Assembly (NCBI RefSeq): GCF_037975245.1
Contig: NC_092564.1
Span: 9,151,984-9,215,983, forward strand
Direction of reading: 5' to 3'
Length of the DNA: 64,000 nucleotides
From: Apostichopus japonicus
Taxonomy: Eukaryota; Echinodermata; Holothuroidea; Aspidochirotida; Stichopodidae
The notes below the pieces were generated by a model that was not told the origin of the DNA, searched no databases, and worked only from the letters and a program-made list of their open reading frames with translations. How positions within the stretch are numbered: position 1 is the stretch's first letter; the number at the start of each line of letters is the position of its first letter. Position numbers and translations under genes: made by a program. Positions 550 through 64,000 of this stretch are shown piece by piece.

Positions 550-3500
550 ATATTTAAGAGCACTCATCTTCTGTTCGTACCATTCCTGCTTATCTTACTG
601 TTCCATGGAAGAAATGCCTGGAAGTGGCTCCTGATACCCGGACTACTCTTTATCTTTGAGAAAATCATCTCAAGTCGAATTGTAAAGAGACATCGTTACG
701 GAGATACCTTCATACAAAGAGCAAATATTCTGCCGAATGGGGTAAGGAAGATTTTTGTTCTTCGCTAAAAAAAAGTATACAAATATCAACAAAAAATCTT
801 TGAAGAGAAGCTACGGCTATCAAATGTACAAATAAGTTTACCATTTAAAGAAATTATGCATCATTGATAATATGCTCAATACTATGTGAAAATTTAAATT
901 AATGGTATAAAATGGTCAACCATAAACCATTCTTTTCCGTTTGTGAAGATATCCTGCTCGTCTTGTAAATATCCCCACCCCCACCCCACCCCAGCGCTGA
1001 AGCTTGGATTTATGTATGTACTTTGTACGATTTATAATGGAGGTAAAATTAAAAAAAAATTATACTATCGTTCTACTCCATTTCATTAATTAACTTTCAA
1101 ATATCCATCGTGACACTTCTCCCCTCCGTTGCCCCTCGCCTACCCCCTTTCCTCATCTCCAAGTTCCGCTCCTACATTGAAGGGGTACTTTATTTTGTTT
1201 GGTCAGGTAGTTCATCTTGTCATCGAGAGACCTTCCAAGTTTAAGTTCCAGCCTGGTGATTACATTTATATGCAGATACCCGAGTTATCTAGTCACGAGT
1301 GGCATCCATTCACTATCTCAAGTGCTCCCGAAAATACCGGTAAGTGTAATGACGTTCTCGTCTGATAAAAGCCTTGTATGACGTATAATGTAAGATTGCA
1401 GCTCATGGTTTTAAAGGTTATCAGTTTAGCCAACATACTGAACATGCTCCAAAGTGCTAAAGGTTTCTTAAAATATAGTATCCATGAAAATAATCCTCCG
1501 AGATTGAGGAATCATCAAGTAGACAATAAGATAGTTCAGACAAGGAAAACGAGTGGCCATTAATGGCCATTAATGGCCATTACTTTGACTTTCTGGCATA
1601 TCGGGGAAGTACCGGTGACATTCAAAGAGTTCAACCAATAACATTAAGATGGGTGTTGTGTAGATTTTTCGTCGGTTGAGCAAACATCATCATCCCTTCG
1701 CTTGTACTTATACCATGAATCTATAAAGAATGTACCAATACTCATTTCCTGTTCTTGAGTTGACGTGAAAATATCTAAATGTTTAAAGCTTCTCAATTCA
1801 GACGGTTATCTGATGTGTCTTTACTCTTATTAAACTATCTGTAAACATGACGTGGGAGGAGGAGATGGAGGGGTCCGACTTCACGGACTATCATGCAAAC
1901 GTCACTTGGCAATGCGAGGATATGTATATATTTGGCATGCCCAGTCGGACGGAAAAATAATATCTGTTAACGGCCCTGTAGGAACATACCGTATAAACTA
2001 TTCATTATGAATATATAGATGCATATATCATGTCCCCTTTCCCTTCAGATAACATTTCCTTACACGTGCGAACACTGGGTGATTGGACTCAACAACTTCT
2101 GGATTATTTTAAAAGAACTCAAAACCGACGACGATCCGTCTGCGAAAGTTTCTCGCCTAAAAAGGGAAAATCTCTCTTCAGTCTTGAAGAAGATTCATCC
2201 GATGACGAGGCAGACACCGACGCCGATGATATCGAGTTGACGACGATAGCCAATACATCACAGAACAGGAAACCGATATCGATGTATGAGAATGAAAACG
2301 ATTCGATGGTTAGTTTTAACGTGGACCCAGAGCCCACATGTGCCCCCACCAAGACGGTTGACGACGATAATCGTGTCGATAACGGAAGTAGTCATCAATC
2401 GTCACTTCGTCCGAAGAAACCATTAAGACGCCGAGTTGAATTCCGGACTCCGGATCAGGACATTCCCGAAATTATCATCGAAACGCCTGGGACGGTAGAA
2501 ACAAGTCTAAGATCTAAGAGAGGTCGGTTAGGGTCACCAAAGAAGAACGTATCGTCAGTGGCATCAGATTCAGAGCTCGTCATGAATGAAAGTACCGACA
2601 TCGAGTTAGATATCGTTCCTGCGGAAATAGTAAGTGTCCAAGAATGGAAAGTGACCATAATGCGATGGCACAATCGGCTACGGCGTATAGGTTGCATGTA
2701 AACAGTACAGACAAGATGTTTCTATACGTTTCCATAGTCGTATAAAAGATCGTATTCTAGATCACCTATAACAAGCGAAAGATTTTATTAACACGTAACA
2801 AAATATCGATATAATAACGAAGTTTTATAGGGAAAAGTGCCACTGTGCGGTTTCCGAGAAAGTGTAAAGTTGTAAAAGAGCAGAGGACATTCGAAGGTAT
2901 AAACATTAATCGAACAATTTTTTTCCAATTAAGTTGTCTTCTCCTTTTCCAAGCATTAATTTTGCACAGGAGTTTTGTATATTGCATAACCACTCACTTT
3001 ACCAAAAATAGGGGTTATGGAAGAATCCCTAAATGTACTGCTCCGCAGGGTATGATTAGTATAAACTTGAAGAAACTGGACATTTGTCTTTCATAATACG
3101 AAATGTGCTTGTTTGACCGCGTACTTTTATTGTAAATAATTATCTTTATAAACTAATTCATCATATAAATAGTTATTATATATCGTTTCGCCACTTGATG
3201 TATTATACCTCTTGTCGATTATTGCTTCAATCCCAATTTTAGAAGAGCCGTCGATCCAGACTGGTACACATGTCTAGCACTCAGACCAGCATAGATCTGA
3301 AAGATGAATGTGTTAATGTGGTATCAACAACAGATAACGACAGCACAGGACTTCAGGTAAAAAATAAACCGCAATTTTGTTTAATTATAACTTTCTTAAC
3401 TCAGAGAGTTGTCCTTATAGGCCTATTAACTTTATACAACAAAAGTGACTAGTGGTTCATTTCTCTCTCGGGGAAGAGAGATAGAGAGGAGGGGCGACCC

Positions 3501-6500
3501 GAAATAACTTAGGAAATCTAGACCCCACTCCCCCCCCACCCCCCCCCCCCAGAACGGATGTCAGCAACATTTTGTGCCCTCTCCTTAAAATTGTAATTTG
3601 TAACAGAGTGAATAACGGCTATATAGTGTAATGAAAAGTCATATATCAAAACAAAGGCATATACCCAAATATATACATACATATATCAATACCAAATTCC
3701 ATGACTCTTTAAAACGGGGGCAAATATTTGGTTTTGCTCCCTCACATCACAATAGCTGGCTAAGCGCCTGCAGCAAGGTGAAGTTTGCGTGTATGGTCAT
3801 AATGATGCTGTTGTACCCCCCCCCCCCCCCCCTTACTACAAGTCTCAAAAGAAGTATACCACGGTCTTTGCGGGTTTCTCGCACATTTGTGGTCGCTTAA
3901 GCGTCGTAAAAATAAATGCTGATTATTATTATTATTATTGTTATTATATACTGGATGGCCATCTAACCTATTTGTCTATTCCTTTCTGCTATAGGTTTAC
4001 GTAGATGGACCATACGGGACGAGTACCAGACGTATATTTGAAGCTGATCACGTGGTCATGATAGCAGGGGGCATCGGAGTGACGCCATTTGCGTCTGTGC
4101 TGCAAAGTATCATGTATAGATTTGAACAGATTCCGTTAAACTGTCCAAACTGTAGCCACTCGTGGACGGTTAACCGACCGAAAGACAGTATGAAATTGAA
4201 AAAGGTAAGTTACGGACTCATTATTATATACGTATATCTCATGCAATCTCTGCTCTTGTGAGTGCCTACTGCATTATTAAACTTAAACTTATACAAAGAG
4301 AATTGACACTCGTTGTAGTATTATGTATGATGGGTGGCTGAAAAAGATATATATATATATATATATATATATGTCACATTTTGATCCCATGTTTTTGACC
4401 AACGTATTCTTGCAACATGGTTCAGATGGTGTCATCAATGTGTTTAAAACACATCAGACTACATTCTCTACCAAATGATATCCAAAACAAAATTCCTTTT
4501 CATCCCTCATGACAGCTTTGCATGCATGCATGCAATGTAGCTTAGACTTTTTGAAAATTATGTTGAGTTTGCGGAATGGAAAGTCATAATGGTCTCAGGG
4601 GCTGTCAAATGTAGAAATCTAAGGGGCGTGTTTCCTTTTCTTGCCCTCCTCCTCCCTTCCCCCTCCCCTGCCCATCATTGTATTCGTGCCTATCTTTTGT
4701 AATAGCCTATCATTTCTATTTTCTGACATCAGCAACCAACCTATGATGGCTTCTTTTGTTGCTTGCAAATGTTATTTTCTGTTGTATTCCTAGACTTGCT
4801 CAAGTCTCTTAGGTATAGATTTATAATCATGCATATTCATCTTCTTCTTATTCACATCTTCGTTCACAAATTTTCTTAAGAAAGGTCTTGTTTGTGAGAT
4901 ACATACGAAGAAAACGTCTTCTTTTGTTCAAAGAAATGTATTTTCTGTCGGATTTACTCCTTTTATTTATGCCTAAATCAGATGATAGGTTGCCTACATT
5001 TGTCACTCGTATCCATGGGCGGCGATCATGGGGGGGGGGACGGGGGACATGTCCCCCCAATATTTTAGGTGGGGGATATAGTATCTAATATCCCCCCCAA
5101 TATTTGGTGGCATAGTTTTTATGAAGCATATGTTTTGTATTTTTTTATGATATCGCTAGTAATTTCAAAATAGAAAATGCTTAGATGCAACTTACAAGGC
5201 CTGGGAAGTGCCATTTCCAGCGATCTGGGAGGCATTTTCGGCCAAAATTTTCTTTTGCGCTTCGCGCCAACTTATGGTGGCGCTACGCTTAGAAAGTCTG
5301 GGTACAAGCTTTGCCCCTCCCTTGGCAAATTCCTCGCAAGGCGCCTGTCTAACCGTGTCACAATTTGTTACTATATATGACCGAAAGTAGTTTTTACTTT
5401 TTTTTTTCGAAATGAATAGCTAGACGGACCGCATCCGTAATGAAATTTGGTTTGCCTCTTGTGTATGAGTATAAGTACGTACAATCATATATATGATCCA
5501 CATCGATATGGGTTCACTGGGTTTCCAATTTGGCCTGTTTCCTACAAGATTTCTAACCGCAGGTGCGTAGCCAAGGGAGGGGGGGCGAAGGATGTAGACC
5601 GCCCCTCCCCCTCGAGCATATTTTTTTGGTATTTTCTATGATATCGAAGTTTTATATATAGTAGCCGTTATAAGAGTTTTTAATATTTGTACACCAATAT
5701 TTAACTGTGTCTGAATTTTCAAAAGTTCCTTGACCAACATTCTTCATCATACTTCCCTCTGCTCGTGCAATTTTGACCGGTCTGTTAGGGGTTGAGGGGG
5801 GGTTTCTATATTGGTTGTCCATAGATGAAATTTTGTGCAACATTATGGGTATGTTTGAAGTGAATTTATTATTCAAATTCTGAACAAATAATGGGCTTAA
5901 AAGTAAAACCTTGAAAAGTGGGGCTGACAGGTATTGTGGGTGGTTACGTAGAATTACCTACAAAAGCAATGATCCACTGGAGATGCAATGAGGTCGAACA
6001 TGATGTGTGACTGGTGACAATCTTGAAAAAAGGTATGAATGGAAAAAAAAATTATTAGGAAAAACTTGATTCTCAGGCAAAAGTGTACATCTGGTTGGTC
6101 ATTTTCAAGCCCGAGAAGTGCCATTTCCGGTGATCTGGGGGCTATCAAAACCAGAAATTTTTCTTGTACGCTGCGCGCCAACCAATGGTGGCGCTCCGCT
6201 TTGTTAGTAATTCGCCTGCATCCAAGCAAATGTCCCCCCCCCCCAATATGTGAAACAGATCGCCGCCCCTGCTCGTATCATATGCTTTCAAAGTTGAATG
6301 ACCGAAGAGGACCTCATATCTCTTCGCAATATTTACAATATTTTATTTTGTTGAATTTGTTTCTATGAAATTAAGACATACCCTTTACTGAGGCCACTGA
6401 CCTCTGTTTTGTATATCTGATACTCAAGGGCACAACGTTTCCATATTTTTCAGAGTAAAAAATAAGATGAGCTTGTATATCTTTCACGATTTCCTGTAGT

Positions 6501-8677
6501 TGTTTTCTTATGTGTTTCAGTTATGCTTATTGACCTTACATATATAGATTACCATCTTACGTGGATGATACACAGTGTATAATAGACCCGTTTAAATCTA
6601 TGTGGTGATAGGATACCGGTATAGGCTTTCTGTTTTTACGTTCATTTCCAAGTATGCATGCCTATTTTATGTGTATAGACCTACTGTGGTATTACTGGCT
6701 AAATTATGGTTTCATATAACTATAAGCTTAGGCATACACGACCGCAATGGCATACTTATCATCTCTCGCTTTTACTGTGTGTTTTCAAAGATCATTCAAA
6801 CATTTTACATTTTATTCAAAGGCAATGAACTATATAATTTGGATTTGTACAACCTTCACGACCACCCCACTTCACGATCACCATCCTTCCCCTCTCTCTT
6901 CATTTAAAAGCCTGTGTTTTATAAACAAAACAAGCTCTGTCGTCGATGTGACGTTAGAGTATAAAAAGATCTGGTAAATATGTATTTCTACCCTTGTTTT
7001 TAGGTCCATTTTATTTGGATCAATCGGGACAGGCGTAACTTTGAGTGGTTTGCTACATTACTGACCGAACTGGACATCGCAGGCCAACATTACATGGGAT
7101 TCGAACAGTTCCTAGACATGCAGCTTTACCTCACGTCAGAGCCCGACAAAAATTTTCTCCAAGATCTCGCCCTCCAGTTAGCTCTAGAAAGAGTCAACAA
7201 CCAAGACTCGGCGGAATTATTGGCAAAGCTGAAAGAAAAAACACGATACGGGCGACCAGACTGGGATGAGGTAAGGCTCCCCATTGGTTTAAAGATCTGA
7301 AAGCGTACATCCTAACGGATGTGACGTAATCATTGTTTCTCTGGAGAGGGGAATTGGCGATAGCATCTATACAAGCACTGTGGGTCTACTTATCATTGCA
7401 GCTTAAGGTTGTCATATAAATCATCAATTTATCCATTGAGTTGAAGTATATTCCCCTGTAGCCCCCTCTTAATCCCCACCCACCTGCTCCAACTGTCATA
7501 TAGTTTGTCATAGTCTGAAAGTTAATCTTAATCTGGTTTCACTTCGCTGTACTTGTGCAACAAGGCCGCAGTGATGACATTTATGATAGACATGAGTGAA
7601 ACTTGTTGAAGTCAGATTGAGACCTTTGCGTGTTTTCACGATTACTTGTTATATAAATATACTTAATCACTCCAGTGCCTTTATTGTTGCAAGCATTCGC
7701 TCGCTAGCACTGTGCATTCATGAAGGGGTATCGGTCATGGGCCAGTCACAATGTGCGGGAACCACGATGTCACATAGTCAACATTCGGTATGTTAGATCA
7801 GGGTCTATCACCACGGGTATACGACGTGTATATGAGGAAACAGGACCTCCAACGCCGACTTGTGCACGAGTAACCAACTTTCTCTGTACAATCACACTCC
7901 GAACTACCTGGGGTGCAACAATTGGTAACATTTTGCAATGCGCCCTCGTTGATCCCTCAATGTCCTCTTCTCTATGGATCTACTATTCCAAACATTACAA
8001 CGTGATTCTTGCTGGATGAGGGGTGGGTGGGTGGGGGGGGGGAGTTGGAAGCAGTTGTGCATACTATGTTTATATATATATATAAGTTATGAAAATGTCA
8101 TGTTCCCCTGCGTTCATCGTTTTATTACATTTGCCTTCAAACCATTATGCCTTCTCACCGCTTCATTTTGTTTTAAAGTGTTCATTGAGACAATTTAATG
8201 TGTCAATGAGGTAATATGCTTTAAGAGTGGCAGTAAAATGTGGTTCTAGCATGTTTGAACTTGAAAGACTATAATTTGACTTTCTAGTTTGTTTCTAGTT
8301 AACATTGATGACCGTTTAACTATGTTAAAGTGCCGATGCCTATACAGTGGTATAGTCACAAAGTACTTCAACCAAAACTTTTCTGCTGTTCCGATTTTGT
8401 TAACTCTTTTTGTTCACTTATTTTCATATTGACACATAACACTATATAAGAGAAGGGATTCTTCACTGTATTTTTGTACCAGCAAGCGATGCTGTTTTGT
8501 TCACCTAATATTCACATTAAATGTCTACATCTCGTCACATTTCAGATATTCCAGCGAATTGCTGAGCAGAGAGTGGGAAAAGTAAAGGTATTCTTCTGTG
8601 GACCTCCAAAAGTCATCAAAACATTAAAACAGAAATGTGAAAAGTATCATTTCCTCTTCAGACGCGAGGTCTTCTAA
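550..8677 (+). CDS. NOX5: NADPH oxidase 5-like, 3' part (seven exons, 5' end outside the window)
   Basis: NOX5-type oxidase: a membrane flavocytochrome that passes electrons from NADPH through FAD and two hemes to O2, making superoxide; in the family it is controlled by Ca2+ through N-terminal EF hands, which are not in this window. Coding exons: 550-741, 1207-1339, 2049-2629, 3243-3356, 3995-4204, 7004-7270, 8546-8677. All borders are AG/GT and phases join, giving 542 codons before TAA. The first exon carries a membrane helix with two His residues 13 apart (residues 6 and 19), as in the heme-binding helix of NOX proteins. The FAD motif HPFTISSAP starts at about residue 97, DGPYG is at 344-348, the NADPH-site motif GGIGVTPFA is at about 365, and FFCGPP lies near the C terminus, which ends in Phe as in the family. 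Exons 3 and 4 encode a long Ser/Asp/Arg-rich stretch (residues 109-340), much longer than in human NOX5. A possible poly(A) signal ATTAAA is at 8927-8932. Family assignment is firm; the longest exon's donor (ATA|GTAAGT) is the least certain border. Confidence 0.93.
4347..4372. repeat. (TA)n microsatellite
   Basis: Thirteen uninterrupted AT dinucleotides lie in the NOX5-like intron between exons 5 and 6. No other role is visible. Confidence 0.9.
5014..6271. mobile_element. Non-autonomous hAT-like composite element with 8-bp TSD
   Basis: The segment is flanked by identical 8-mers CTCGTATC (5006-5013 and 6272-6279). Its ends are inverted repeats: CATGGGCGGCGATC on the left, GATCGCCGCCCCTG on the right. 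An 8-bp duplication with CAGGG-type ends is the hAT superfamily signature. Inside are two divergent copies of a block containing GCGCCAAC and ATGGTGGCGCTCCGCT (about 5205-5300 and 6105-6205), also found at about 36,030-36,140. No transposase frame is present. It sits in the long intron before NOX5 exon 6. The middle (5348-5559) has an unusual internal duplication, described in the findings. Confidence 0.75.
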
Positions 8678-33110: not shown

Positions 33111-34836
33111 ATTTTAGTCAACGTGGAAGAGCTACGAGGTTTTTACAGATCTCAGAGGGTCATGGTGTTAACCGGTTCCAACTATCTGTTTTATTTTGGT
33201 TTTTGGCGCATTGGAATGCCATTCTATCAAGATCGTAGCAAAATATGCCTACAATTGGACTTATGATTATTGTAGGTGAAAAGTCAGCCAACTTGGGAAA
33301 GAACCTGGGCACGAAAACCAACTGCTTAACCGATCCAATCGCAAACCCAGTCACCTTGCATTGAAACAATGGCTGTGTGATCGTCTTCATTATTAAAAGG
33401 TGAACGCAGTTATGAAGTCGCGCCACAGAGCTCCATTCTGGTCAATTGTATACCTCTAGTATACTGCCGGTCCCCCCCCCCTCCCACCTTTCATCCCCAG
33501 TTTCCCACGGTCTTCCATTATCATCATGCATCCCCTCTCTCCGTCATGTGCACTATTCCCGTTCGTATCACTCCGCCAGTTGAAAATGGTATGATAACAT
33601 TATAGAAAGGCCTATACCAAGATTCGATCACTTTAGGAACTTATAGTTACCTTTACGTACTCTACCTTAATTAAAGGTAGTCAGTATAGGCCCAAAATTA
33701 TAGCACGCTATAATTGCTAGAAGTCTTCAAAGAGTACTTTACTGGAGGTCTTTACTCTCCAAATTGTTCTCATTCATGTATAAGGAACACATGTACACAA
33801 GATGACTGCATGTCCCAGTGAGGAAAATTCCTCGAAGGTTGTAATAAAAACAGTTTAAGAATTTTGACCAAAAAGGTGACCATATATGAATATCTAGCAT
33901 ATTTGGGGCCAGTACAGCATACCTTTAATATGCTATTTAATCATTTCACTGTGTTGATGACTCCCGGGTCCACCCCATCCCTCGACACAGTGTTCCAACT
34001 CATGGAACACCTTTTGCATATTGAGCATATAGAATAGTGTATTTGCACAGGTCTGACGAGAGGGGCCGGACCGAGAGGGGGCCCGGGCGCAGATCATGGC
34101 TGGCCTTGGGAAATATGGAATGTAGAATCGTGTCATCTTATGTTCATGATGAGTGCAAATAGTGGCCCCGTTGGCTCAACTGCGCCAAGGGCCCGACCTG
34201 GCCCTCAAAGCAAGTCTTGATTTGGGTGCCACTTCAACTGATGGGATTACTGAATCCCATCATGCTATACTAGTTTTGTTCATCTCTATATGATGTTGCA
34301 ATTGATGTAACACATCAAGCCTTATTGAGTCCACCAAGTGAAGGAAGTTATGCGAATAATTAATGAGTTAGTATTTCGGTGCCCAGACACATTTTCATGT
34401 TAGTATATTATTCCACTGTAGAAACCAAATCTTGAAATTTGAACATTTCGACCCCATCGTTCCTTATGTGGAATGCAGCTACAGTTTTGATATTTTGGTC
34501 AGTGGAATAACGCCGGAGGAATTCTCAAAGCCAACACTTTATCATGCTTTGGATGTCGAATAGCTCAATTTTAAGATACTGATTCATTTAACTTTTGTAG
34601 CCAATCAATGGGAAATAAAATTTCGAATTTTAATCTCGAAATTGTGACCCCCCGGTGGTGATTGTTTCCGATGTTTTGCAAACAACTCATTGAGGTCATT
34701 GCAAACCTGCAAAACTTCATCAAATATCCCGCATTCATATCATGCATGAACGTATAGGTTTCATTAACATATCAAACGTAAAATACTTCATAATTTGCAA
34801 GATGCTGACAGTTATAACGAATCTGTTGCGCTACTA

Positions 34837-35242
34837 CAGGTTTGTCCAACCTACGGCCCGCGGGCCACAGTCCGGCCCGCCGCAGGGTTGCGTCCGGCCC
34901 GCCAGAGATGCTCTACGGTGCGAAATTTTAGTGAGCAGATTTATTGATAACAATTTGAAGCTATATAATCAATCATTCGAACCTTCTGGGTCCAAAAAAC
35001 TGCATACAGGTCAGTTTGTGTGACACTCTCTTAGCGGAGGGGGGGGGGGGCGGCCGAACTTTATTCATCTGTTTTATCAGGAAGGAAAATAAATCAGTGC
35101 GCTCCGCGCGCAGTGCTCACATTTTGTTGCCTTGGGCTTCGGGCAAAAAAAATCGAAAAATCGAGCGTAGGGTTCATGCGGCCCCCTCCTTCATCATAAT
35201 CATTCCATGTGGCCCTCCTCTGCAAAAGGTTGGACAACCCTG
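34837..35242 (+). mobile_element. Short hAT (Charlie-like) non-autonomous element, copy 1
   Basis: A 406-bp element starts CAGGTTTGTCCAACC and ends GGTTGGACAACCCTG, flanked by perfect 8-bp duplications CGCTACTA (34829-34836 and 35243-35250). Internal GGCCCGCGGGCC near the left end is typical of Charlie-type hAT derivatives. It has no transposase. A second copy lies in opposite orientation at 47,297-47,674. Confidence 0.9.
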
Positions 35243-45100: not shown

Positions 45101-48100
45101 CGCCACTCATAATGCTAGTTTTATTCACTGTCATTGTAGTACAAACATTTCTTTACAACTAAACGCTAGGTATAATACATTTACTGTGGCTGCACAATGC
45201 ACACTGAAAAGTGGTATTTCTGTGCAATACGAGATTTATACTTCCATCTCCTAAAAGAAAGTGATGAATGACGTGCATTAAACATGTTACAGAATCATTG
45301 AATTATTCTGTGAGAATAAAGCCCTTGTAGTTGCTGTCAATGTACTTAAACCAGTTCCTGCTTAATAAAAGGTTTTGTCACTTTTTTGTTACATTTCTTA
45401 CTAAAGTTTCGTTTGGTTAAAAATGTAAACTTTTGATTGAATTTGGTATATGGTAACTCAAAATAGCACATGATGGGTTAACTTCATATTAGTATGTGGA
45501 TTTTGTTGAGTGCAAGAACCCTGTTCTTTTCTGTGAAGTTCAAAGGTCATTTGAGGTCAACAGACCAAAGTCTGAAAACATTGTAAACACGGTAACTCAA
45601 GTATACCTTGTCCTGACCTTGTCTTTGTTGAACTTGATACTTTGCATGTAGATCCAATTTGGTGAGTACAAGAACCCTATTGAAATTGATAGAGATCAAA
45701 AGTCATGTGAGGTCAACATTAGTCAAATTCTGAAACCTGGTAAACACACTATCTCTAAAAGTACATCTATCCCTCAATAGCATAGCTTAGATTTACTTCA
45801 TATTTGAAATGTGGATCTACCTTCTTGAGTACAAGAAATCTAGTGTTTTCTGTAGAGGTCAAAGGTCACTTGAAGTCAACATTTTAAAGTCTGATATGTT
45901 TGTAAACTCTCTAACTAAGAAATTGAAGCTTGGATTTACTTCAAACTTTATATGTACATCCACGTTATTGAGTAGAAGAAACTTGTTTTCTACTGGTGTC
46001 ATCTGTCATTTGAGATGAACCAAGGTCTCTAACTCAAAAAGCAAAGCTTGGATTTACTTACACACATGGTATGTGGATCCACCTCATTGAGTACAAGATC
46101 CCCACTAATGTTCTCATGGGAGGTCAAAGGCCATTGGATGTCAAAGTCTGAAAACTTTGTAAGGAAAGTTAAAAGGATTGATGATTTTCACACTTGTTAT
46201 GTGGGATCCACCTTATGAAGTAAGAGAATTGTCTGTTGACAGCTTTCATTAAATGTTCCCATACAAAAAATGTAAAATATGTCAAGCAATCACTAAGCCT
46301 ACTGGCTTTCTGGTTATCGTTAGGTGTGCTAGATCCTTTCAACAACCATGCAAAGTTCCAGTAAATGCAATCACCACATCTTTGTGGCAAGAAACTGCTA
46401 CAAACTAGATGCAGAGCAACTTTTCAATGGTTGTCCAATCATCGGAGACAACCAAATTTCTTTTCGACTTGTTCACATTAAATTCAGATTGCATTCTAAC
46501 TAAATATCCCAAAAAGGTAAATGATAAATTGGTTTAGCCTTCTGTCACTGGAGATACTGAAATAGGAGCAAAATGTAGCCGTAAGAATATGACCCAACCA
46601 AAGAAGTTTACTGGCCGCAAGCTGGGGTTCCTTTAACCAAACCTACATCTCTTCTATTAATGGCTCAAAGTGGGGTGTTCTATTCACCAAACTTGCATAT
46701 CTCTCCTACATTGTACATATTGGTCATTCTTTGCAGTTGCTTTTGTACTTTTTGATCAGATAGCCCAATTAGCAGTTCTGACACATAAAATGTAATAACT
46801 GGTTGTCTGTGGGGGTCCCAGGAATATACGTTAAAAATATGCCCAGAATGGTGGTACATTTTGTTCAGAACATTGCAGATTAATATTTGGACTAGATTTA
46901 AGTATAAAACCATGGTAATTTGTTTAAAACCAAGGTTGACGGGTTTTGAGCACGACAAATAAACATAGTACATTGTGTTGTGTAGATATGTTGGGTATAC
47001 TTACCTGTCTATTAATAGGCCTTTGTCTGCATGTGTTTTCTGATAATCAGCAAAGTTCTCTCACTGTTTAAACTACTAAATTGTGTGAAGTTCAAGGCCT
47101 GGAACCTTGTAGAAAGAAATCTTGAAGAGGTGTAAATGCACAAGCTGTCACCTATAAATTCGGGACACAAAAAGGCATGTGTTTGCTTTTGTGCTCTCGC
47201 AGGATACATCCAGCAGCCGTGAATGCCGGTTTTCAACGATCACTGTATATGGAATCATAGATTGACCCATCCAATTAGCATCTATATGGTATACAACAGG
47301 GTTGTCCAACCTTTTGCAGAGGAGGGCCGCATGGAATGATTATGATGAAGGAGGGGGCCGCATGAACCCTACGCTCGATTTTTCGATTTTCGCCCGAAGC
47401 CCAAGGCAACAAGATATGAGCACTGCGCGCGGAGCGCACTGATTTATTTTCCTTCCTGATAAAACATGAATAAAGTCCAGCCGCCCCCCCCCCCCTCCGC
47501 TGAGAGAGTGTCACACAAACTGACCTGTATGCAGTTTTTGGACCCAGAAGGTTCGAATGATTGATTATATAGCTTAAAATTGTTATCAATAAATCTGCTC
47601 ACTAACATTTCGCACCGTAGAGCATCTCTGGCGGGCCGGACTGTGGCCCGCGGGCCGTAGGTTGGACAACCCTGGTATACAATCTTTATATTTACACTGT
47701 AAAGTGACCAATACGTGGTTCTTTGATGGCATTTGAAGGTAGACATGTTAAGTCATAGAGTTTTTAAGTTAGTGTTGGTTAAACATGTATACTGGAGCAT
47801 GCAGGACTATTTCTCCAAACTGTCATGTCATTTAACTTATCGTATTTATCACTAAAACACAACAATGCACAGTTCAATAAGATCCGAACATTGTTTATCA
47901 CAATAACGATCAGAAACATACTTTCCAGTGATAGTAATTTAAGTGTACTTTGCAAATATGTTTAATTTGCAAGAAAATTTTAAAGGATTTACCAATCATG
48001 TCTCAAATATTCTCAAAAATTTAAAGGGTTACAAGGTAGAGGTACCACAAGCAGAAAATGGTTCTTCAATTCCTTTCTGTTTCTGCATCTCACAGAAAAC

Positions 48101-54100: not shown

Positions 54101-57100
54101 CTTGGTATGATTAGTGCATATTGAAACCAGTACCCATGAACCACCCATCAATTACCTTTAGGCTTGTCTTAGGCAGTACCTTGAGGTCTCTCATGGTATG
54201 CAAGTTCCTCTGACCTCCACCTTTTGTAACCTCAATTACCGTGGCAACAAGGCAAATCTTCTGTGGTATGTCAACTTTTTAATGAGAAAGCCTCTCTTGT
54301 GTTGGGAATTTGGGGTTTAGTGCTGCCCTACAGTGCTGAACATTGGAACCACTGAGTTGTACCTTTTTGCACAGTGTGAGCAACAATACTGTACTGTAAG
54401 TGGTGGTTTCATACAGCTAACCAGTTCATTTATGATAGGTGGGTATAGGAAGGATTAAACTGTACTGGAGTTAGGCAGTAGACATAGAGGTCTCACAAGT
54501 TAAGAGAGGAGCAAGCCAGGTGAAGCAATGTTGTACACTCAGTGGAAATCTTGCAAGGTAGTAGTTATTTCGAGAATGTTTTACCAATTTAGGTGGGCCA
54601 TGTTGTTATAAACAAGTAGTCAGTAATTATTGTGTTAAAAAAGGAGATAACTGTTACTTTCTCTGTTGGTTATCTGTCATCTTTTGCATCTGGAGATCTG
54701 ATGCATCACCAACCCATTTGACAAATCTGCTAGTATGGTCAGATCATTTTAAGTAATTCTGTGAATGGTTACTATGTTGTCTGGCTTGTATAGTCTCTGT
54801 AGGACTTCAACTTTATATGGGTTTTGATGCAGATCTGTTGATCACTAGTTCTGTTGAAGTAATTTATGAATTTAGGTTGATAAAGCATAATGATCAAATT
54901 TGAAATAGCTAGTCTTTTACTAATATAATACTCTACCTGTGTAATACCTTTAGTTATCACAGTTGTCTCTTCATCATTTAACTTGTCAGTTATTATAGTA
55001 TTTGTTGCTTTTTTCTCGTCCTACATGTATGCATGTTACTACTACTGCAAAGTGAAGTTTAAAAATTGTGAAGTTTGGAATGACAGTGGAAGTCTTTAAG
55101 TTGATTAGGTTATTATTTTATTTTTTTAAATAAATATTGAGATCCTTGTAGGTGTTATCAGTATTAGGAATCTAAACACACATTTGAATGCATGCATTGA
55201 GAAATTTGTTATTGGGCTGTGTAACTGTTAGGCAAAATGCTTGCCTTTTCTTTTAAAGAGAAAAAAACTGAATCATTAGAGTATTTACTCTTGTTAAATT
55301 TTCAACCTGCCCTTTTGCTACTTTTGAATTATTCAGGATTCTAATGGTAATGTTTGAAAATTTCAACTGCAGTATTACATTCGCTGAAAGGTTACATTGT
55401 TAGTGTGTGATTGCTTACATTTCGATTCTGAAAAGAGTTGCAAATATCCCTTCTCCTGGGTTTTTTCCACTTGTTATTCTGGAACTAGAGCATCAATGCA
55501 GCAGAATCTCAATACTATGCACATTGAAATAATATTCTGTTGGCTGAAATATTTAACACCCAGAAAGCCAATGTTCTTTAGTGATTCCTTGACAAATTTC
55601 ACACGAGGTTACAATTTATGAAACTGCGGACGGGATTCAAAGTTTGTGGATCCTCAAACAAAGTATGAAGTGTATCCAAGTTGGAGTTATTCTGATAAAA
55701 AGGTTTTTACAAAGAGTTCAATGTTTTGATGTGTGCAGAGTTTTGATTTTTGCAGGATTATTGTGTGATGAAGATGAAAAAGAGAAGTTTAACACACCAA
55801 CTTCTCTTGCTCTGAATCTGATTCATAGGTAAAAAAACCATTGGTTCATCGCTTATGCATTTCTGTCATATCCAAATCAGTAACATCTGAGCTGTACAGA
55901 AAGTTTCATTGAGAAAGTAACTGCAATTGCATTTATTGTGTCTACAGAGAAGGACATCTATTCAGAAAAGCAGTAAAGTTATCTGTTGAACAAAACCTAT
56001 ACTATTGTTTTGCAAATTACAGGCCTATTGATGAGATATAGTTCATCCTTAGATTCTCTCCCTGGTATCTCAAGAATCTACTCTTGTTACTACTTTGTTA
56101 AAGACATGCCTGTTATCAGAGGAAGCAACTTAAAACCACCATTCAATCCTGGGCCTGAACTTTGATTGGCTTGTGTGTTTCAAACAAAAGAAGCCACTGG
56201 GAGATCAATTTTCCCTTTTGGAGACAGGGATGGTATTTATTTAGCTATTCAGCCCCTCTTGCAGTAGAATTTGAAAGGGAGGCAGGCAGTGGCTTTGATT
56301 ACAATAGTCAGTGCCTGATTACCCTCCAGTGAAAGCAGATTAAATGGAAGGGTCCTGTTGTGCAGCAGGATGGCTTATATATGGAGGAGAGTCAGCACAT
56401 GTACACACACACTGCACCAGTGGGAATTCTTACACTGTAGTAGTAGTAGTAGAAGTAAGAGGAAGAAGTCATGGTAGAGGAAGAGGAGGAGATGTCTGCT
56501 ATCTTTGACATGGAAAAGGATGTTACTAATGAAGAGAAAATATGGCACCTTGAGGTAAAGTTGTTAACACTATCATGTGGTTAGTATTAGGTCTTTGAAG
56601 AGACATGAAATTCATTATATTGTATTAAGATTGGTTGGTTGGAATGCAAGTTTTTAAAATTAATTGCAGTTGGGATTCATAAGCCTCTGGGCAAGTCTGA
56701 GCTCTCAATGTTAAACTTTAATTATTGGACTTTCTCAAGGATCCATGATATAACTTTTTTGTTTGAAGAACCAACTATTTTTAGACTTAAATAGTATTTG
56801 TCAGTACATGTTGGATGATCTGTAGGCATGCAACTTGTGAAATCTAATATCGATAGTTAAACTTATCGTAATTTATAGTGTGGGGAAGTTGCTTTTTAAA
56901 GTTTCAATGTTTCTTGATAATGATATTGCCAGTTGAAATAGTTTCCAGGACATTCCCAGGTTGACATCAATTATAATTTGTAGCCATTTTTAAAGGTTTT
57001 TTTCTGTTCTTTTCAGTCAGTATCGCCTACAATGTTTTTAATTTCAATCCGATTCAAAAGAGACTGTCATATGCTGGTTTAAGCTGGAAATTTGCTTTTG

Positions 57101-60100
57101 CTTTTCCTCTTAAAAACTCTCCAATTTTCAAAACTGGATTAAACTGGAATTTTGTATTGATTTGAGAAATGTCCAGTTTTAGTGGAGTAGCTCTTGTTAA
57201 GTCAGTACGATTAATCCATGAGCTTGTAATGAAAATGTTGGTATTTAATTATTTTACATTTAGGAGTCAGTCTGGGCATTTACTCTACTCCCAATTTATT
57301 TTTTTAAATTGAGAACTTGAAGCTGGACAGATACCTAAACTATCACATACTTCTTTCATTCATGCTGAATGTCTCTTGCAGTATCAATCCAGGTGACACT
57401 TTCTAACTTAGCAAATCCCAGTGGTTCTGGTTGCTCAGATTTTTGTCTTGTTGGTCCGGGTGAATTCTGTTATACAGAGCAATATGAGGTAAAAAGAGAC
57501 TAATGGTTCCATCCTAGATTGCAATGTGTAGAGTTAAAGGAGCGGCCATCTTTGGTAGTTTAATGTAGGAGTATTCATTATTGTGACTGACAGTTATACC
57601 AAATCTTTGTGCATTTATGATAGAGAATCATAGTATGCATGCCTTGCGTGGCTATTTTGTCAACACCTAAAATGACCAAAACACATGGGGTGATAAATTA
57701 TGATAACCATAACTGAGGAAGAATCTTTATAGATGTAACCTTCTCCCTCAGTAACCTAATGGCAGTGTTGATTCCTGATAAAATGCAATTTCAGACAAGT
57801 TCTTAATACATTCTGAGGGGTGGGGAGGGGGTTGTTGTTGTCATCAGCCACTCACCGAGAAGGATTTTATGGCCCCTATCGGTCCAATAAAGATAGTCTC
57901 AACTCTGATTAATTATCATAAATAATTGTTGAATGAGGTTCATTGCTTGTAAGGATTGAAGTACAGGATGCTGGGATACCAGGGATAGCTTGCCTCTGAT
58001 GCCATAATTAAAAGGGGGGGGGGGTGGGAGGGAGAAGACCCAAGTCAGAGTTTACCACAAGTTTCCCATCAAAAGTTAGTTATCAGCCAGAGAGAGAAGC
58101 ACAAAACATATATTATATATCATATTTGAAGCTGCTCTGTCCATATCTTGCCTTAAACAAGCCATAGGAAACAATTGTATACATCGTACTCGACGTACTG
58201 TATTCTTAGTCTTTTGAGCTTCATCATTTCAATAAATATCTCTTCTCCACTCCATTATGTCTATATTGACAGCTACTATGAATATTCTTATACATGCTGT
58301 GATAATTAGTGCCCTCCTCTTTCATGCTGTATAAGTTTAATACATTAATTATAACAATGCATTTTTTGCAATGGTAACAATGCATTGTGCTTGGTCAATG
58401 ACTCTTACACACTGAAGCCACATAGGGTGAAAGGTCTCCCCCTGTGAATTGTAAACTAATGTGCAAGAATAAGGAGTAACCTCCATGCCTGTGTTATGTT
58501 GTGATGTTGGATTGGTCTGAACGAGGGGCAATCTTTGTGACTGAGGAAAGTCAAATATTGCACTCGTCCCGGCCTGCCCACCCACAGCAATTGCAACAGT
58601 TTTTCAAGTATCCTGAGATCGGAAGGAATCTGCTGAAGAGGTGCGCAAAGTTAGTCCCGACCATCAGGTTGTGGCAGGTTGCAATGTGTTGTCTTTGTAT
58701 ATTTCATATTGCACTTGTCCCGGCCTGCTGGTCTGGTGGCAATAATCGGTGGATGGCAGATTTCTGGCTGCAATGGCGGCATCATGGCACAGAGAGCACC
58801 GGGGTTCTGACTGGATCGATAAAACCGCTCCGAGGCTGAGAGGAATGAAATGACTGCAAACTTGTTCTGTTGGTGATGTTAATGTTTCTGATTATTCATC
58901 TACATTTACTGAAATTGGCCGCAATACACATTTACGGCCTCCATTGCTTAGACATGACGAACAAGTAATGAGCGGGCTGATTGCAAAAGTACCTAAAATG
59001 ACCGTACTGGTCGAATGCAAAATGTGCCTGCTTCTTGGTCACTGAACATGTTATAAAATGTTCAAATACACTACTCTTTGACTTAAGAAATCATAATGGA
59101 ATCAAGTTAATCCAATTTCCAAGTGCATCAATATTAAAAAAAACAGAATTCATAATTATGATGAATGTGTACAATGGCTATTTTTATGTATTGATATCAT
59201 TTATCACTAACTGGTGTACATGATGCCCTTGTTTAGTATCATTAAGAACTGAGCTAACCCCCTATTCCAAATATCACCATCTCATGCATGGTCTTCTTTG
59301 AGAATCATCATTGTCTATATTGTGTGGGAATTAAAATCATGTTGAAGAACAGGATATGGAAAACCACAAGAAGTAGTTCAAATAAACAATAGTTATAATA
59401 CCTTTTATTGTTAAAATTGCCAATGTCATTGGTTACAAAGTTTACTTCTGGCAGAGTGGCAGGAACTAAATTGCCAGAATTACAGATAAAGAAATCAAGA
59501 TAAAATATGGGTTTTCTACACATCATCCTGTAGCTGCATGAGTATGAGAATTCTTAAAAGTTTCAAGTTTGCCTTATGAGTTTTAAGTCTGTAGTAATGT
59601 TCACCCAGAAATATATATACAAGAAGTGTCTAGCTTCTTTAACACTGCAATTATTATGCAGCAGTATGTTAATCATGGTTTTAACAACTTCAGTACCCCC
59701 CCCCCCATATATTCATACTTGATTGATACTCACAATAACAATTATTTTGCCAAAGTGATCGACTATGATTACTTCGCATTTTGATCAAAAGTAATCATAA
59801 TCGATAACTTCAAAAAATGTTATCGCTTACGATTACTGGACTTGATTCTAAGCCTGATTTGAATCCAATTCCAAGGCTGCAGGGACACGCCCACCCACCT
59901 TAGCCAATTTGCTTTGAACTATTTTAACACGATCACAATACAGACATTATGTTCCATTAACTTCTTTCTTTTTCATTCTCCAGTTTCTTTTCAACTTTCC
60001 TTTGTCATTTGTAGTGGTTGCATAGCAATTCTCTTATGGTGTTGGCAGAGCCTTTATATCTGTGTACATGTAAAAGACTTGATCCTAAGCTGATTTTAGA

Positions 60101-62700
60101 TGTCTGCTGTATTACCTAAACAAAGTTTAAATTTTTGCAGAATGGAATGTCTGTTAGGCAGAGAGAGTGCAGACATAGTGGACTCAAGGGTGGATGTTGC
60201 TTGGCACCTGTTGGACTGGAAGAGAAGGTATGAATATCAGAGCTGGAATACATGAGGGACATAGTGCCATGGGTATCGTTCTTGCTTTAATGCCACCACC
60301 CGAAGAGAGCCAAGTGTATTACAGGTCTGGAATGGATTCATATTTAGATTTGTCATTGTGAAGGTAAGGTTGGTCCTTGCCAAAATGTGTGTTCTTAACT
60401 TCTAGGAATCAATGGAACTCTCGAACTCGACCATAGTCTGTGTTATTTGTTTGCTTTCATTACATATTTTAGGCTATGCTGAAGTTATCATGTGTATGTT
60501 TAGCTGACCACTTAATAGAAATTTACACTGTTTTTTTACCTTCCTAGAATGTTAAAGCTGGTTCTCTGAATTAAGTCGTGTTTCGGAACTTCGCAGCCAA
60601 GCACAACTATATATGACCAAAGCAAAATATAAACTTAAATGTTTGTTTTGTGCTTGCATGATATGCTTGTTATTCTGACCACAGGATTAAGCTTAGCGTA
60701 ATTTAATTGATGTTTAAATATTTCTGTGGATATTTAAAGATGATCAAGAATTCAACAAACATACCTTGTCCATCTAATGAAGGCTTTGTATATTTGAGCA
60801 AAAGTATAAGGAATCTTAGCAATAATGGTAACCTGTATGTGAAGATCTGAAAGTTCCATGTAACTAATACTTCCATTATTAATACTACTTCTATTATTAA
60901 TAATACTATTATTAATACTTTATTACTAATACTTACTTCCATTATTGTTGGATGTCAGAAGGTCATTAGAGGTTACCAATGGCTGAAATATGAAAGTTAA
61001 TAACCCTTACTCTCTATGTAACACAATAAATCTCAGGCTCCAGTGCTAGCTGTCCCCAAGGAGCTCTAGTGCTTCTAGAAGCCAGGAATTTCAATATTGT
61101 AATGCTTGGTATCACTAATCCTCACCTTTTTCTTTTTTCTCTATTTCAGAGAACTAATTTTGAGCCTGCTGACAAACTTGAAGGATATTCATGGCAGGCA
61201 GTAAAATGTACAATGGCTTCAGTGTGTAGGTCAGGACTTGTTCAATACTTGAAATTATTATGCTTGGTATTGCACTTGTCCCGGCCTATTCAATGCAGTC
61301 CACCTTCTCCAGTTGATGGCCAGTATGGAATGACAGCAATCTCTCAATATGGCGGATTTTATATGAAACGTTTCTGAATTTGCCCTACCTTTTCTCCATC
61401 TAGTGTAACCATGGAAATAACATTTTGCCTGTCTCTGCTCCCTGAATGTTCCCTCAGATGTTCTGGATGGATAGATGTAAACAATTTTGTGTAGGCAATA
61501 AATGTTTTGTGGTCAGAATGAAAAACTTACTAAACTATTGTTCGCACTTTCTAGCATTTTATCCTGAAATACCATAGGAAGATAAACTTTTCTGAGCTCT
61601 GTATATTTCGACCAAGATGCAAAGTGCTAGTTTGTGATTCAGACATGACTAGATTGAACATTTGCATAGAAATTTCATCGGCATGATTAGAGGAATAGAG
61701 CAATGCTGTACAGCCGCACCATACGACAGTGTGTAGTGCATGAAAGCAATGTTATATTTGTCAGGGCCAGTTATTAGCACTCACTGCACTGCAAGAGTCT
61801 GGACTCAACTTCACACCATGATTTGATATACTATTTGAACTATCCCTTCATATGGTGGTGCTATATTGTGTGGACCCATGCCTTGCGCGTCTCTTGAAAA
61901 GACAGGCTTGTTTTCTTTATGCCACTGATGTATATAGTCTGTATATAGTGTCTGTATGTGCGTGCTTTGCTGAAGCTGCTCAGTTTGCCCCCAGGAGTGA
62001 TTTCTCTCTATTGTGTCAATGTTTGGCATTTCCATCCATTCTCTGTTTGCTGGAGGTCATAGGTCACCTGTGTGCGTCAGTATAACAGGTGGTCCCTGTC
62101 TTAACTGTGTGTAGGATTTGTTACCATGTAAGTTCCATCTGTGGGTAGAAAGATAGATGAAAATTGGTTGACCTGACATTTTGGGTAGGTAGGTAAGACC
62201 ATGGGTGTAGGTACAAGTTGAAAGCAAGTTTAAACGGGTAGGTAATTTACTCCTTTTGAAACTTTAGATTTGTGGCATTACCCAAAATTTTGTGGCTATT
62301 ATGTTACAAGATTTACTGTGTAGAGGATGTGCAAATATTTAAGGGTTATTTATGGGTTAGACTGGCTGAACAATTGCTGAGAACACATTTTTATCCTTAT
62401 CACAGGGGATCTATAGTGTGGTTGAACCTTCATTTGGTAGGAGTGATACAACTCTTGGGAAAATTCCACTTTATCTGAAATTAAACCAGCTAAGGGTTTG
62501 AGAAGACTCTCATCCAGGTCATGACAAAAGTGTGAAGTTAACCATTTCAACAACAAAAATTAAAATACAATCATATTTCATAGATAAATATCAGTGCTTG
62601 AACTCAACCATTTTGTAGGTATTATCAACATTTCTGATATTTTTTTTTCCCAGTTTTATTTGTAGCAGTTGCAGGCTTCCTTTGCTGAAGATGACATGCT
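39194..62700 (+). CDS. Helical-repeat protein, tentative Lines homolog (LINS1-like); hosts miR-92
   Basis: A long-intron gene assembled from small exons: 39194-39360, 50320-50482, about 53518-53591, 53873-53957, 55756-55828, 60141-60227, 61150-61200, 61995-62079 and probably 62666-62700, continuing to the right. From the fourth exon to the eighth every junction has AG/GT borders, compatible phase and an open frame, which is hard to get by chance. The first exon has ATG after CAG and a strong donor (CAAA|GTAAGT) and joins exon 2 in phase. Exon 3 has a good donor, but its acceptor and phase do not fit exon 2, so an exon is missing or misread. The product looks all-helical (for example VATAAVCLVLYTEHL, GCVQALGKLLPSD, VAWHLLDWKRRELILSLL, FAEDDML). 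The order of these blocks recalls LINS1, a Lines-family protein (Wnt/patterning-linked in flies, intellectual disability gene in humans), but this is memory-level similarity. An upstream coding exon near 38,993 (METNTSRDRE) is possible. Four miR-92 hairpins lie in its introns. Confidence 0.6.
41541..42024. repeat. Two diverged copies of a GC-rich unit about 370 bp apart
   Basis: GGTGGGGTCCAGGGGC...CCTTAGGGCCC (about 41,568) and GGTGGGGTCCATGGGC...CCTTAGGGCC (about 41,936) are each preceded by AGCGCGA and a TATA(AC)GG-type block. They look like a local duplication or two ends of an old unclassified repeat in the first long intron of the Lines-like gene. There is no coding content. Confidence 0.5.
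43384..43727. repeat. Tandem repeat, about 2.5 units of 130-140 bp
   Basis: The block ACATGGTAGCCTAACACCAC followed by CTAAGTCAATGG recurs with starts at 43391, 43531 and 43660. The later half (GTGACGCAGTTATAAGATAT, then GGAATACTTTC) is seen twice. Intronic; no function is visible. Confidence 0.75.
44067..44175 (+). promoter_or_regulatory. Candidate intronic core promoter (E2F/YY1-like site, TATA, Inr)
   Basis: TTTCGCGC (44067-44074) matches an E2F consensus and overlaps GCGCCATTTTG, a YY1-like site. A TATATAA box is at 44144-44150, and TCAATAT gives a plausible start near 44173, 29 bases after the TATA start. It sits in the first long intron of the Lines-like gene, in the same direction as the miR-92 hairpins. 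It is motif-only evidence. Confidence 0.3.
45455..46215 (+). repeat. Diverged minisatellite, about five units of 125-165 bp, with AGGTCA half-sites
   Basis: Units share GGATTTACTTCA, TATGTGGATCCACC, TTGAGTACAAGAACCC and AGGTCAAAGGTCATTTGAGG-type blocks. Corresponding half-sites start at 45544, 45700, 45863, 46003 and 46128. The unit at 45856-45868 holds a perfect AGGTCA-A-AGGTCA direct repeat. A diverged stray unit is near 49,680-49,800. Intronic in the Lines-like gene. Confidence 0.7.
47297..47674 (-). mobile_element. Short hAT (Charlie-like) non-autonomous element, copy 2
   Basis: A 378-bp inverted copy of the element at 34,837. It starts CAGGGTTGTCCAACC and ends GGTTGGACAACCCTG, with perfect 8-bp duplications GTATACAA (47289-47296 and 47675-47682). 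Well-preserved ends and duplications suggest relatively recent movement. It lies in the first long intron of the Lines-like gene. Confidence 0.9.
50690..51030 (-). mobile_element. Degraded non-LTR retrotransposon (LINE) fragment
   Basis: Read on minus, fragments of the C-terminal end of a LINE reverse transcriptase appear: GDLIQVFKIVYGFDN and, in another frame, FFSNSVVNEWNGLPEKVV (about 50,871-50,814). These motifs are typical of CR1/L2/Jockey-type ORF2 ends. Frames are broken by stops, so it is inactive. It lies in the intron after exon 2 of the Lines-like gene. Confidence 0.7.
53700..53872 (+). promoter_or_regulatory. Very long pyrimidine tract before a Lines-like exon
   Basis: About 170 bases of almost pure C and T, including CCTCCCTCTTTCC-type runs, lead to the acceptor CTATTCCTACAG at 53872. 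A tract this long upstream of a small exon is the kind of site bound by polypyrimidine-tract proteins. It could also be only a CT-rich simple repeat. Confidence 0.5.
58507..58584 (+). ncRNA. mir-92: microRNA miR-92 family hairpin 1 (miR-92b-like)
   Basis: The 3p arm at 58556-58577 begins TATTGCACTCGTCCCGGCCT, identical over these 20 bases to vertebrate miR-92b as I recall it; the seed ATTGCAC is intact. The 5' arm (GGTCTGAACGAGGGGCAAT, from 58514) pairs with it with one bulge and wobbles, leaving a loop of about 23 bases. It lies in the 4.3-kb intron between the exons ending at 55828 and starting at 60141, 83 bases before hairpin 2. Confidence 0.93.
58655..58738 (+). ncRNA. mir-92: microRNA miR-92 family hairpin 2
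   Basis: The mature 3p arm at 58707-58728 begins TATTGCACTTGTCCCGGCCT, identical in these 20 bases to miR-92a. The 5' arm AGGTTGTGGCAGGTTGCAAT pairs opposite. The basal stem is strong (ACCATCAGG with CCTGCTGGT, extended by CCGACCA with TGGTCTGG). It shares an intron with hairpin 1. Confidence 0.95.
61222..61293 (+). ncRNA. mir-92: microRNA miR-92 family hairpin 3
   Basis: The mature arm at 61268-61289 begins TATTGCACTTGTCCCGGCCT and ends AT. The 5' arm TAGGTCAGGACTTGTTCAAT pairs with few mismatches around a short AT-rich loop. The hairpin starts only about 20 bases after the predicted 5' splice site at 61200/61201, in a 794-base intron. Confidence 0.93.
62268..62342 (+). other. Possible alternative terminal exon of the Lines-like gene
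   Basis: After a good acceptor (TTACTCCTTTTGAAACTTTAG), a frame in the phase left by the exon ending at 62079 stays open for 24 codons and ends in TAA at 62340-62342. Used, it would make a shorter protein. It competes with the exon at 62666, which also fits the phase. No nearby poly(A) signal was identified. Confidence 0.25.
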
Positions 62701-62765
62701 GTGTGTGCCATGCATGCACACCTTCACTAGTTCTCTCTGTGGAAGGCCATTAAAGACATCTTGTC

Positions 62766-62846
62766 ACACTGGTTGGAACTTTTGCAAAACTGTTGAAACC
62801 TGTTGGTTACTAATTCAGTATTGCACTTGTCCCGGCCGGTTGGGCT
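62766..62846 (+). ncRNA. mir-92: microRNA miR-92 family hairpin 4
   Basis: The mature arm at 62819-62840 begins TATTGCACTTGTCCCGGCC and ends GGT. The 5' arm ACTGGTTGGAACTTTTGCAA pairs opposite it, with a larger loop than hairpin 3. It lies about 65 bases downstream of the possible donor at 62700/62701. Confidence 0.9.
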
Positions 62847-64000
62847 TGAAGTAGTAATCATCACCCTCTTTCGAGCTAGACACAGTGACCAACAGTTTCT
62901 TGATGGTGCTACTTTTTGCTTCATAAATATACTACATGGTTCATAAACTTCAATGCAGTATAATAAATGCTGTTGTGCTTGTGAAAGATTCATGTGAATG
63001 GTGAGGCAACATTAAAACTGGTAAGTGGTCACCGAAAGGTTCATTGATGAAAGTTGAAAAAAAGTTGAAAAAAAAAGTTGAAACTTCAACCTTTCCAGCT
63101 TACTGCACTAAAAGCTCAGTAAAAATGACCCCCCCCCCCCTCCTATGCAATTTTCATATCAATATTCATTATTTTTATTGAGTTATCTGTCTTTAAAATT
63201 TTTGAGCTGAATAAAATTCGCCAGAATTTTTTACGAGTCCGTAGATTCTACAAACTTCTAACAAAATTTACAAACCCTGCCCAACAAATTATGTGCCAAT
63301 CAAATCTCTCCGGTTTGTTCACGACCGTTAGGCCTAATTTCACTTTCGTGGCTAGCCTGTATGTGTTAGGTCCATGTAGGTCGGTTTTATCCATGTAGCT
63401 TACGAAATTGTCATTTCTTTCCATAGCAATGAATAAACAGGTGTCTAAAGACGTTTCCTCCGTAGAATAGTAAAAAGTGGATGATGCGAATATAGGACCA
63501 TTAAAATCTTGATCTTAATCTTAATTTCGTTTTACAGTTGTGTAATGGACATGCGGTTGCAGTGGTTTTACGGTAATTCGTTTGCGCCATAAGCCATAAA
63601 TTTCTTTTGATTGCGACAACTTTTCTCCAATAAACCCACCTGGTCAGAGTGCATTTAGATAAGAAACATCCTGGTACTTTGTGAAACTAGAGGTAACAGT
63701 ATTTTTTCAATAAGAGGTAACAGTAAGTTTGTCATATTCTAGGGTATTTATAATTAGCTGACATGGAACATTCACTCACAAATGCATATATTAAGACTCT
63801 AGCACAGCATATCCATTGCTGCAAGGATAATCTGTGCCCTTTCAACTTTCCCAGTTGAGGGTTTTGTTATTCATTTAACCTATGTAAATTGGAACGAAAG
63901 AATGTGCGGTGGCAATGTGTGCTCCCTTTACTATTAAATGTTTCGGTGGCAGAGGTTGGGATAATTATTTGGAATAGAAAGATATAGCCCACCACAATTT
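62847..64000. other. Right end of the window, no feature recognised
   Basis: Probably intron of the Lines-like gene, which appears unfinished at the last candidate exon. A C-run lies at about 63,130-63,140. No further miR-92 hairpin, tRNA or coding exon was seen. Confidence 0.5.

Follow-up and report, generated by a model that had tools for sequence, protein, structure and literature searches.

A probably free-standing cluster of four miR-92 hairpins, with no coding host found, in the sea cucumber Apostichopus japonicus, and further miR-92 copies within XRCC3 and TOPBP1

The vertebrate miR-25, a member of the miR-106b-25 cluster, is hosted in MCM7. MCM7 is also given as the host of miR-106b-25 in the title of a reference within the available part of PMC3797095. 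In Drosophila, jigr1 is a demonstrated coding host of mir-92a and mir-92b, which are located in an intron and the 3'UTR (PMC4441384, available in part). In Ciona, according to the accessible sections of PMC8001136, there are clusters of miR-92 paralogues without miR-17 or miR-19: three paralogues lie in an intergenic region of C. savignyi, and C. robusta has two clusters, on two chromosomes. For A. japonicus itself, the excerpts of PMC5638244 report 12 miR-92 copies in the 2017 genome, where miR-92 is the most abundant miRNA family, and those of PMC4669494 describe small-RNA libraries whose tags were mapped without mismatches. Neither host genes nor coordinates are given for miR-92 in the available portions of these two papers and of PMC9351827.

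The stretch of DNA analysed here (the window) comprises 64,000 bases of the A. japonicus genome (C4:9151984-9215983, in an assembly of 671,581,487 bases and 35 contigs). In a motif search of the window the miR-92 core was located four times, always on the plus strand, with 3p starts at 58556, 58707, 61268, and 62819 and core-to-core spacings of 151, 2,561, and 1,551 bases. The initial annotation had listed four plus-strand cores, and this is confirmed by the 19-base core TATTGCACTYGTCCCGGCC, which is found with zero mismatches at all four copies and, without mismatch, at one further place in the 671.6-Mb genome. Matches to the 9-mer TATTGCACT number five across the window, against 0.99 expected, and the fifth (19635, minus strand) is unrelated; because two of 100 shuffled sequences also gave five matches, the 9-mer alone is little proof. 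The seed AUUGCAC (positions 2-8 of the 3p mature) is present in all four copies. The four loci form a homotypic cluster, being paralogues on the same plus strand within a few kilobases (58556 to 62840).

Three of the four mature sequences correspond to published forms, as far as the available parts of the source papers allow the comparison. Hairpin 1 (58503..58586, plus strand) contains the 3p mature TATTGCACTCGTCCCGGCCTGC at 58556-58577, a 22-mer identical to the miR-92c row in the table of PMC4669494. Hairpin 2 (58656..58737, plus strand) has the 3p mature TATTGCACTTGTCCCGGCCTGC at 58707-58728, identical to miR-92b-3p in the same table, and the 22-mer of hairpin 3 (61218..61298, plus strand; 3p mature TATTGCACTTGTCCCGGCCTAT at 61268-61289) is the miR-92a-3p qPCR primer of PMC9351827 minus its leading base. 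The fourth (hairpin 62760..62849, plus strand; 3p mature TATTGCACTTGTCCCGGCCGGT at 62819-62840) varies at its 3' end and differs from each of the five published forms with which it was compared; a sixth form, printed in PMC9351827, lies outside that set. The miR-92a form in the available table of PMC4669494 matches none of the genomic stretches searched; the letters in that table may be those of a reference, because its names are sea urchin names. Both the cores (TCGT, TTGT, TTTT) and the 3' ends (GGT, TAT, TGC) differ among the copies.

With suitable flanks, all four copies fold into a hairpin whose 3' arm carries the mature strand. The z values are -2.66 for copy 1 (58496-58592; 2 of 200 shuffles as good), -6.65 for copy 2 (0 of 200), -3.85 for copy 3 (1 of 200), and -3.55 for copy 4 (62756-62849; 0 of 200). 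Under the tighter limits of a first pass, copies 2 and 3 gave z values of -4.49 and -4.19, and copies 1 and 4 were weak, at -0.94 (35 of 200 shuffles as good) and -1.37 (18 of 200), respectively. The Rfam mir-92 model (RF00464) matches copies 2, 3, and 4 with E values of 4.8e-9, 2.9e-8, and 5.9e-8; copy 1 reaches 16.4 bits (E 5.6), less than the 17.4 bits of a match on the antisense strand of copy 3. None of the four attains the gathering score of 47 bits, which is a threshold set by curators and not a biological feature, and for this reason a whole-window scan at gathering scores returned only two tRNAs. Between 55 and 64 kb Rfam yields 23 matches at E ≤ 10; no match to a family other than the miR-92 group was judged credible. 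When the four hairpins are folded from their alignment, the energy is weak (-5.89 kcal/mol), since the aligner, which works on sequence, leaves the 5' arms unmatched; this result was not used as evidence. The seed in all four copies, the Rfam matches of copies 2-4, and the agreement with published mature forms uphold the assignment of these elements to miR-92; they are real miR-92 hairpins and largely already known microRNAs.

The homotypic miR-92 cluster formed by the four hairpins is probably expressed from its own non-coding RNA polymerase II transcript and not from a coding host. The four genes on the plus strand of C4 (miR-92c, miR-92b, miR-92a, and the fourth copy) would share one primary transcript, a long non-coding pri-miRNA that is perhaps spliced, and the Drosha and Dicer steps would release from it four 3p microRNAs with the common seed. 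Because the seed is the same in all four, the main effect of the cluster would be to raise the dose of miR-92.

No protein gene is recognisable in the roughly 37 kb that surround the cluster. Upstream, an SLC35-like (UAA) gene runs on the minus strand to about 33 kb (strong windows up to 33.3 kb). Downstream, from about 70 kb onward, there is an F-box/LRR gene, also on the minus strand, which was named from a PDB match (E 1.5e-21); scores rise in windows extending past 70.3 kb. Near this F-box/LRR gene, on the minus strand of C4:9225984-9235983 (offsets 866-3469), there are six matches to snR76, a C/D snoRNA, all below threshold (28.5-29.8 bits; gathering score 55) and perhaps a tandem repeat; the first four are spaced about 720 bases apart. 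Elsewhere in the window, positions 7004-7270 on the plus strand encode an NADPH oxidase exon, closest in PDB to NADPH oxidase 5 (E 7.9e-19), and two similar open frames (ARDALRCE...LVSRFIDNN...) at 34694-35023 (plus) and 47444-47752 (minus) suggest a dispersed repeat.

In the initial annotation the hairpins were assigned to introns of a protein-coding, possibly Lines-like gene. The Lines identity is rejected: LINES_N and LINES_C have a single match each in the genome, both on another contig (C13:2981396-2981704 and C13:2982014-2982121), and the proposed exon chain has no similarity to the C13 Lines protein (BLASTP E 1.1). A host of the MCM7 type was likewise discarded, as none of the 29 MCM-family exon matches, found in a search by family that did not single out MCM7 itself, is less than 11 Mb from any miR-92 copy. 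The proposed chain can indeed be written as joinable, phase-compatible open frames (55756-55828, 60141-60227, 61150-61200, and 61995 onward; 91 codons), but these do not clearly exceed chance, and non-coding DNA in this region scores alike. A Pfam search with the first 70 residues of the chain assigned them to no family, its PDB hits were not significant (E values of 0.21 and 0.4 against an unrelated enzyme), and in the genome the chain matched only itself (four of four). Pfam searches with stops masked gave nothing above the cut-off in the three plus and three minus frames of 34-64 kb, or in the three plus frames of the next 20 kb downstream. This search recovered its positive controls (the UAA transporter in the window, Lines, and Rad51) and missed the downstream F-box/LRR gene (C4:9225984-9235983) as well as one of two frames over the UAA gene; since a real gene was missed, the masked search is a weak test on its own.

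Coding potential was also estimated with an exon-chain model that combines splice and codon scoring, applied to 7.4-kb windows on both strands. The first model was trained on 1,221 codons and a larger one on 1,989, after removal of four wrong-strand rows and of three MCM pieces interrupted by an in-frame stop. With the larger model, the 7.4 kb around the cluster score 13.6 on the plus strand, a value reached by five of 200 shuffles, and 12.3 on the minus strand; other windows between 33.3 and 70.3 kb score 4.7-15.6. The best windows of five real genes score 47.5 (NADPH-oxidase region), 47.9 (SLC35-like), 35.7 (F-box/LRR), 41.6 (XRCC3), and 42.7 (TOPBP1, in an 8-kb stretch), and the strand opposite a real gene can reach 27.3 (TOPBP1 stretch) or 21.1 (NADPH-oxidase region). 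Under the first model the cluster scored 11.9; seven of 60 shuffles reached its score, or 22 of 60 when introns were penalised more heavily. When 34-72 kb was searched for a single chain, the plus strand scored 23.9, the minus strand 19.4, and the reversed sequence 24.6. Two of the six windows at the XRCC3 locus, which are intron-rich, score only 13.6 and 15.1, so that a genuine gene whose exons are locally sparse would resemble the cluster.

These scores bear most directly on the main rival explanation, namely that some protein-coding gene other than Lines, perhaps a fast-evolving one, carries the hairpins in its introns, and that their output follows its transcription in the manner of jigr1. 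Besides the 91 joinable codons, this reading can draw on the slight excess of the cluster score over shuffles and on a strong acceptor at 61150 (8.6); the best-scoring chain reuses the exon 60141-60227 and an exon 61150-61229, the latter being one of only four plus-strand exons in 34-64 kb that score above 9. Other miR-92 copies of this genome, moreover, do lie in protein genes (see below). Against it, the cluster score falls among those of nearby DNA in which no gene is recognised, the codon score of the proposed chain is only 4.4 bits over 91 codons (7.1 with the first model), the donor at 61200 scores -3.2, and the similarity searches brought no support. The proposed exons are therefore best read as chance open frames, their excess over shuffles being slight but not nil. 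No coding host of any kind was found at the cluster by Pfam, PDB, or exon-chain scoring, and the claim of a protein-coding host is not sustained; a small, fast-evolving, or long-intron gene may escape these tests, and a host of this sort is considered improbable.

A single non-coding transcript for the whole cluster has also to be weighed against division into two or more transcription units, for example with copies 1 and 2 together and copies 3 and 4 apart. The gaps of about 2.6 and 1.6 kb would leave room for this, but all copies are on the same strand with no recognised gene in between, and miRNAs clustered this closely are commonly transcribed together; separate units are thus rather unlikely, though marginally less so than a coding host. 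There is a similarly small chance that copy 1 or copy 4 is a decaying duplicate that no longer yields a miRNA, as could be suspected from their weak first-pass folds and from the Rfam score of copy 1, which is lower than that of an antisense match. Both copies, however, fold well with full flanks, and in the searched stretches, which hold the 12 folded copies, the miR-92c of PMC4669494 (as given in its available table) is matched by copy 1 alone. The preferred explanation remains a non-coding transcript carrying four miR-92 genes.

A search of the whole genome for the 19-base core, in which two mismatches were tolerated, gave 13 matches: the four in the window, six on the minus strand at C8:9577237-9578437, and single ones at C8:8221796, C4:15691973-15691991, and C19:5822320. 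The core is free of mismatches in five of the 13, namely all four window copies and one of the six clustered on C8. A backwards control pattern had four genome matches, and single copies with two mismatches could therefore be due to chance. All matches except that at C19:5822320, which was left out, were folded; these 12 copies equal in number those reported in the available text of PMC5638244. They consist of seven copies in XRCC3 or TOPBP1 introns, the four of the window cluster, and one atypical single copy. The last (C8:8221796, plus strand) has a one-mismatch core, a z of -2.55, and an atypical one-sided bulge of 12 bases, and shows neither an Rfam match at E ≤ 0.05 nor a convincing gene around it. 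On the mitochondrial contig of the assembly (C35, 16,099 bases), the COX1 frame stays open when translated with the echinoderm mitochondrial code, and it is followed by what are presumably ND4L and COX2, as in echinoderms; the ambulacrarian origin implied in the initial annotation is right.

The six C8 hairpins are in sense orientation (minus strand) within one XRCC3 intron of 1,887 bases (C8:9576718-9578604), which separates the helix-hairpin-helix exon from the Walker A exon. The exons flanking this intron join in phase, and the joined peptide aligns unbroken to XRCC3 (PDB 8gja, E 8.3e-29; about 2e-20 for two further XRCC3 sequences), the upstream exon alone giving a weak match (E 0.11). With the Walker A exon and the exon C8:9568119-9568337, XRCC3 is ranked first (E 2.5e-37). 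The z values are -3.77 to -5.06 for five of the six hairpins and only -1.98 for that at C8:9577981, with 10 of 200 shuffles as good. Four of the six match the mir-92 or mir-310 model at E < 0.001, none of them at gathering score.

The copy at C4:15691991 (minus strand; z -5.98; Rfam mir-92 E 1.5e-6) is located, also in sense orientation, between two exons of a BRCT gene, the one before it ending near C4:15694347 and the one after it starting at C4:15690962. The exon pieces match TOPBP1 chains in PDB, with E values of 3.2e-20 upstream (6hm5) and 1e-13 downstream (8ok2). Both the C8 cluster and this copy are thus flanked by coding exons on their own strand. In the same stretch (C4:15689500-15694500, offsets 3579-3707, minus strand) there is a sub-threshold mir-3138 match (37.7 bits; gathering score 90; E 0.011), which lies 5' of the TOPBP1 miR-92 hairpin on the same strand. 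The TOPBP1 copy and one XRCC3 copy have the TTTTCCTGGCC form in common, and one of these two may therefore derive from the other.

Seven of the 12 folded copies are accordingly tied to the DNA-repair genes XRCC3 and TOPBP1, the window cluster being the free-standing part of the family. If this arrangement were conserved, it could reflect a repeated evolutionary coupling of miR-92 to S-phase, repair, and checkpoint genes (MCM7 in vertebrates, XRCC3 and TOPBP1 in this sea cucumber), and the dose of miR-92 would then be set by the proliferation programme. Such a coupling is put forward tentatively, as a possibility that is more doubtful than not; the landing of miR-92 in a second repair gene may be a coincidence. 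The placement of copies in XRCC3 and TOPBP1 is of greater interest than the window cluster itself. By title, no XRCC3 host of miR-92 is described among the literature matches listed, and those naming both xrcc3 and miR-92 are all medical, again judged by title; a miRNA neighbourhood figure in PMC11076791 may already show whether these hosts are conserved in sea urchins.

With the mistaken host gene removed, the sea cucumber miR-92c, miR-92b, and one miR-92a form are assigned to one genomic cluster together with a fourth member, and most of the other copies are placed in XRCC3 and TOPBP1 introns. Published changes in 'miR-92' during heat stress and aestivation may consequently mix the output of free-standing and DNA-repair-linked loci. 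In existing small-RNA data these sources should be separable, since the copies differ both in their cores (TCGT, TTGT, or TTTT) and at their 3' ends.

Compared with the systems described at the outset, and within the available parts of the papers cited, the window cluster is ordinary in kind, since homotypic miR-92 clusters are already known from Ciona (PMC8001136). As in Ciona, it consists of miR-92 paralogues only; it differs in belonging to an echinoderm, in having four copies over 4.3 kb, and in being accompanied by a second cluster of six copies in an XRCC3 intron. Like the Drosophila jigr1 locus (PMC4441384), it contains multiple miR-92 genes, but, unlike jigr1, it is without a detectable coding host. 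It also resembles the vertebrate miR-17-92 (make-up according to PMC8001136) and miR-106b-25 clusters in being a clustered locus with miR-92-family members. In contrast to the vertebrate clusters, it has no credible member of another miRNA family at 55-64 kb by Rfam. The XRCC3 and TOPBP1 hosts, as DNA-repair or checkpoint genes, recall the vertebrate miR-25 in MCM7.
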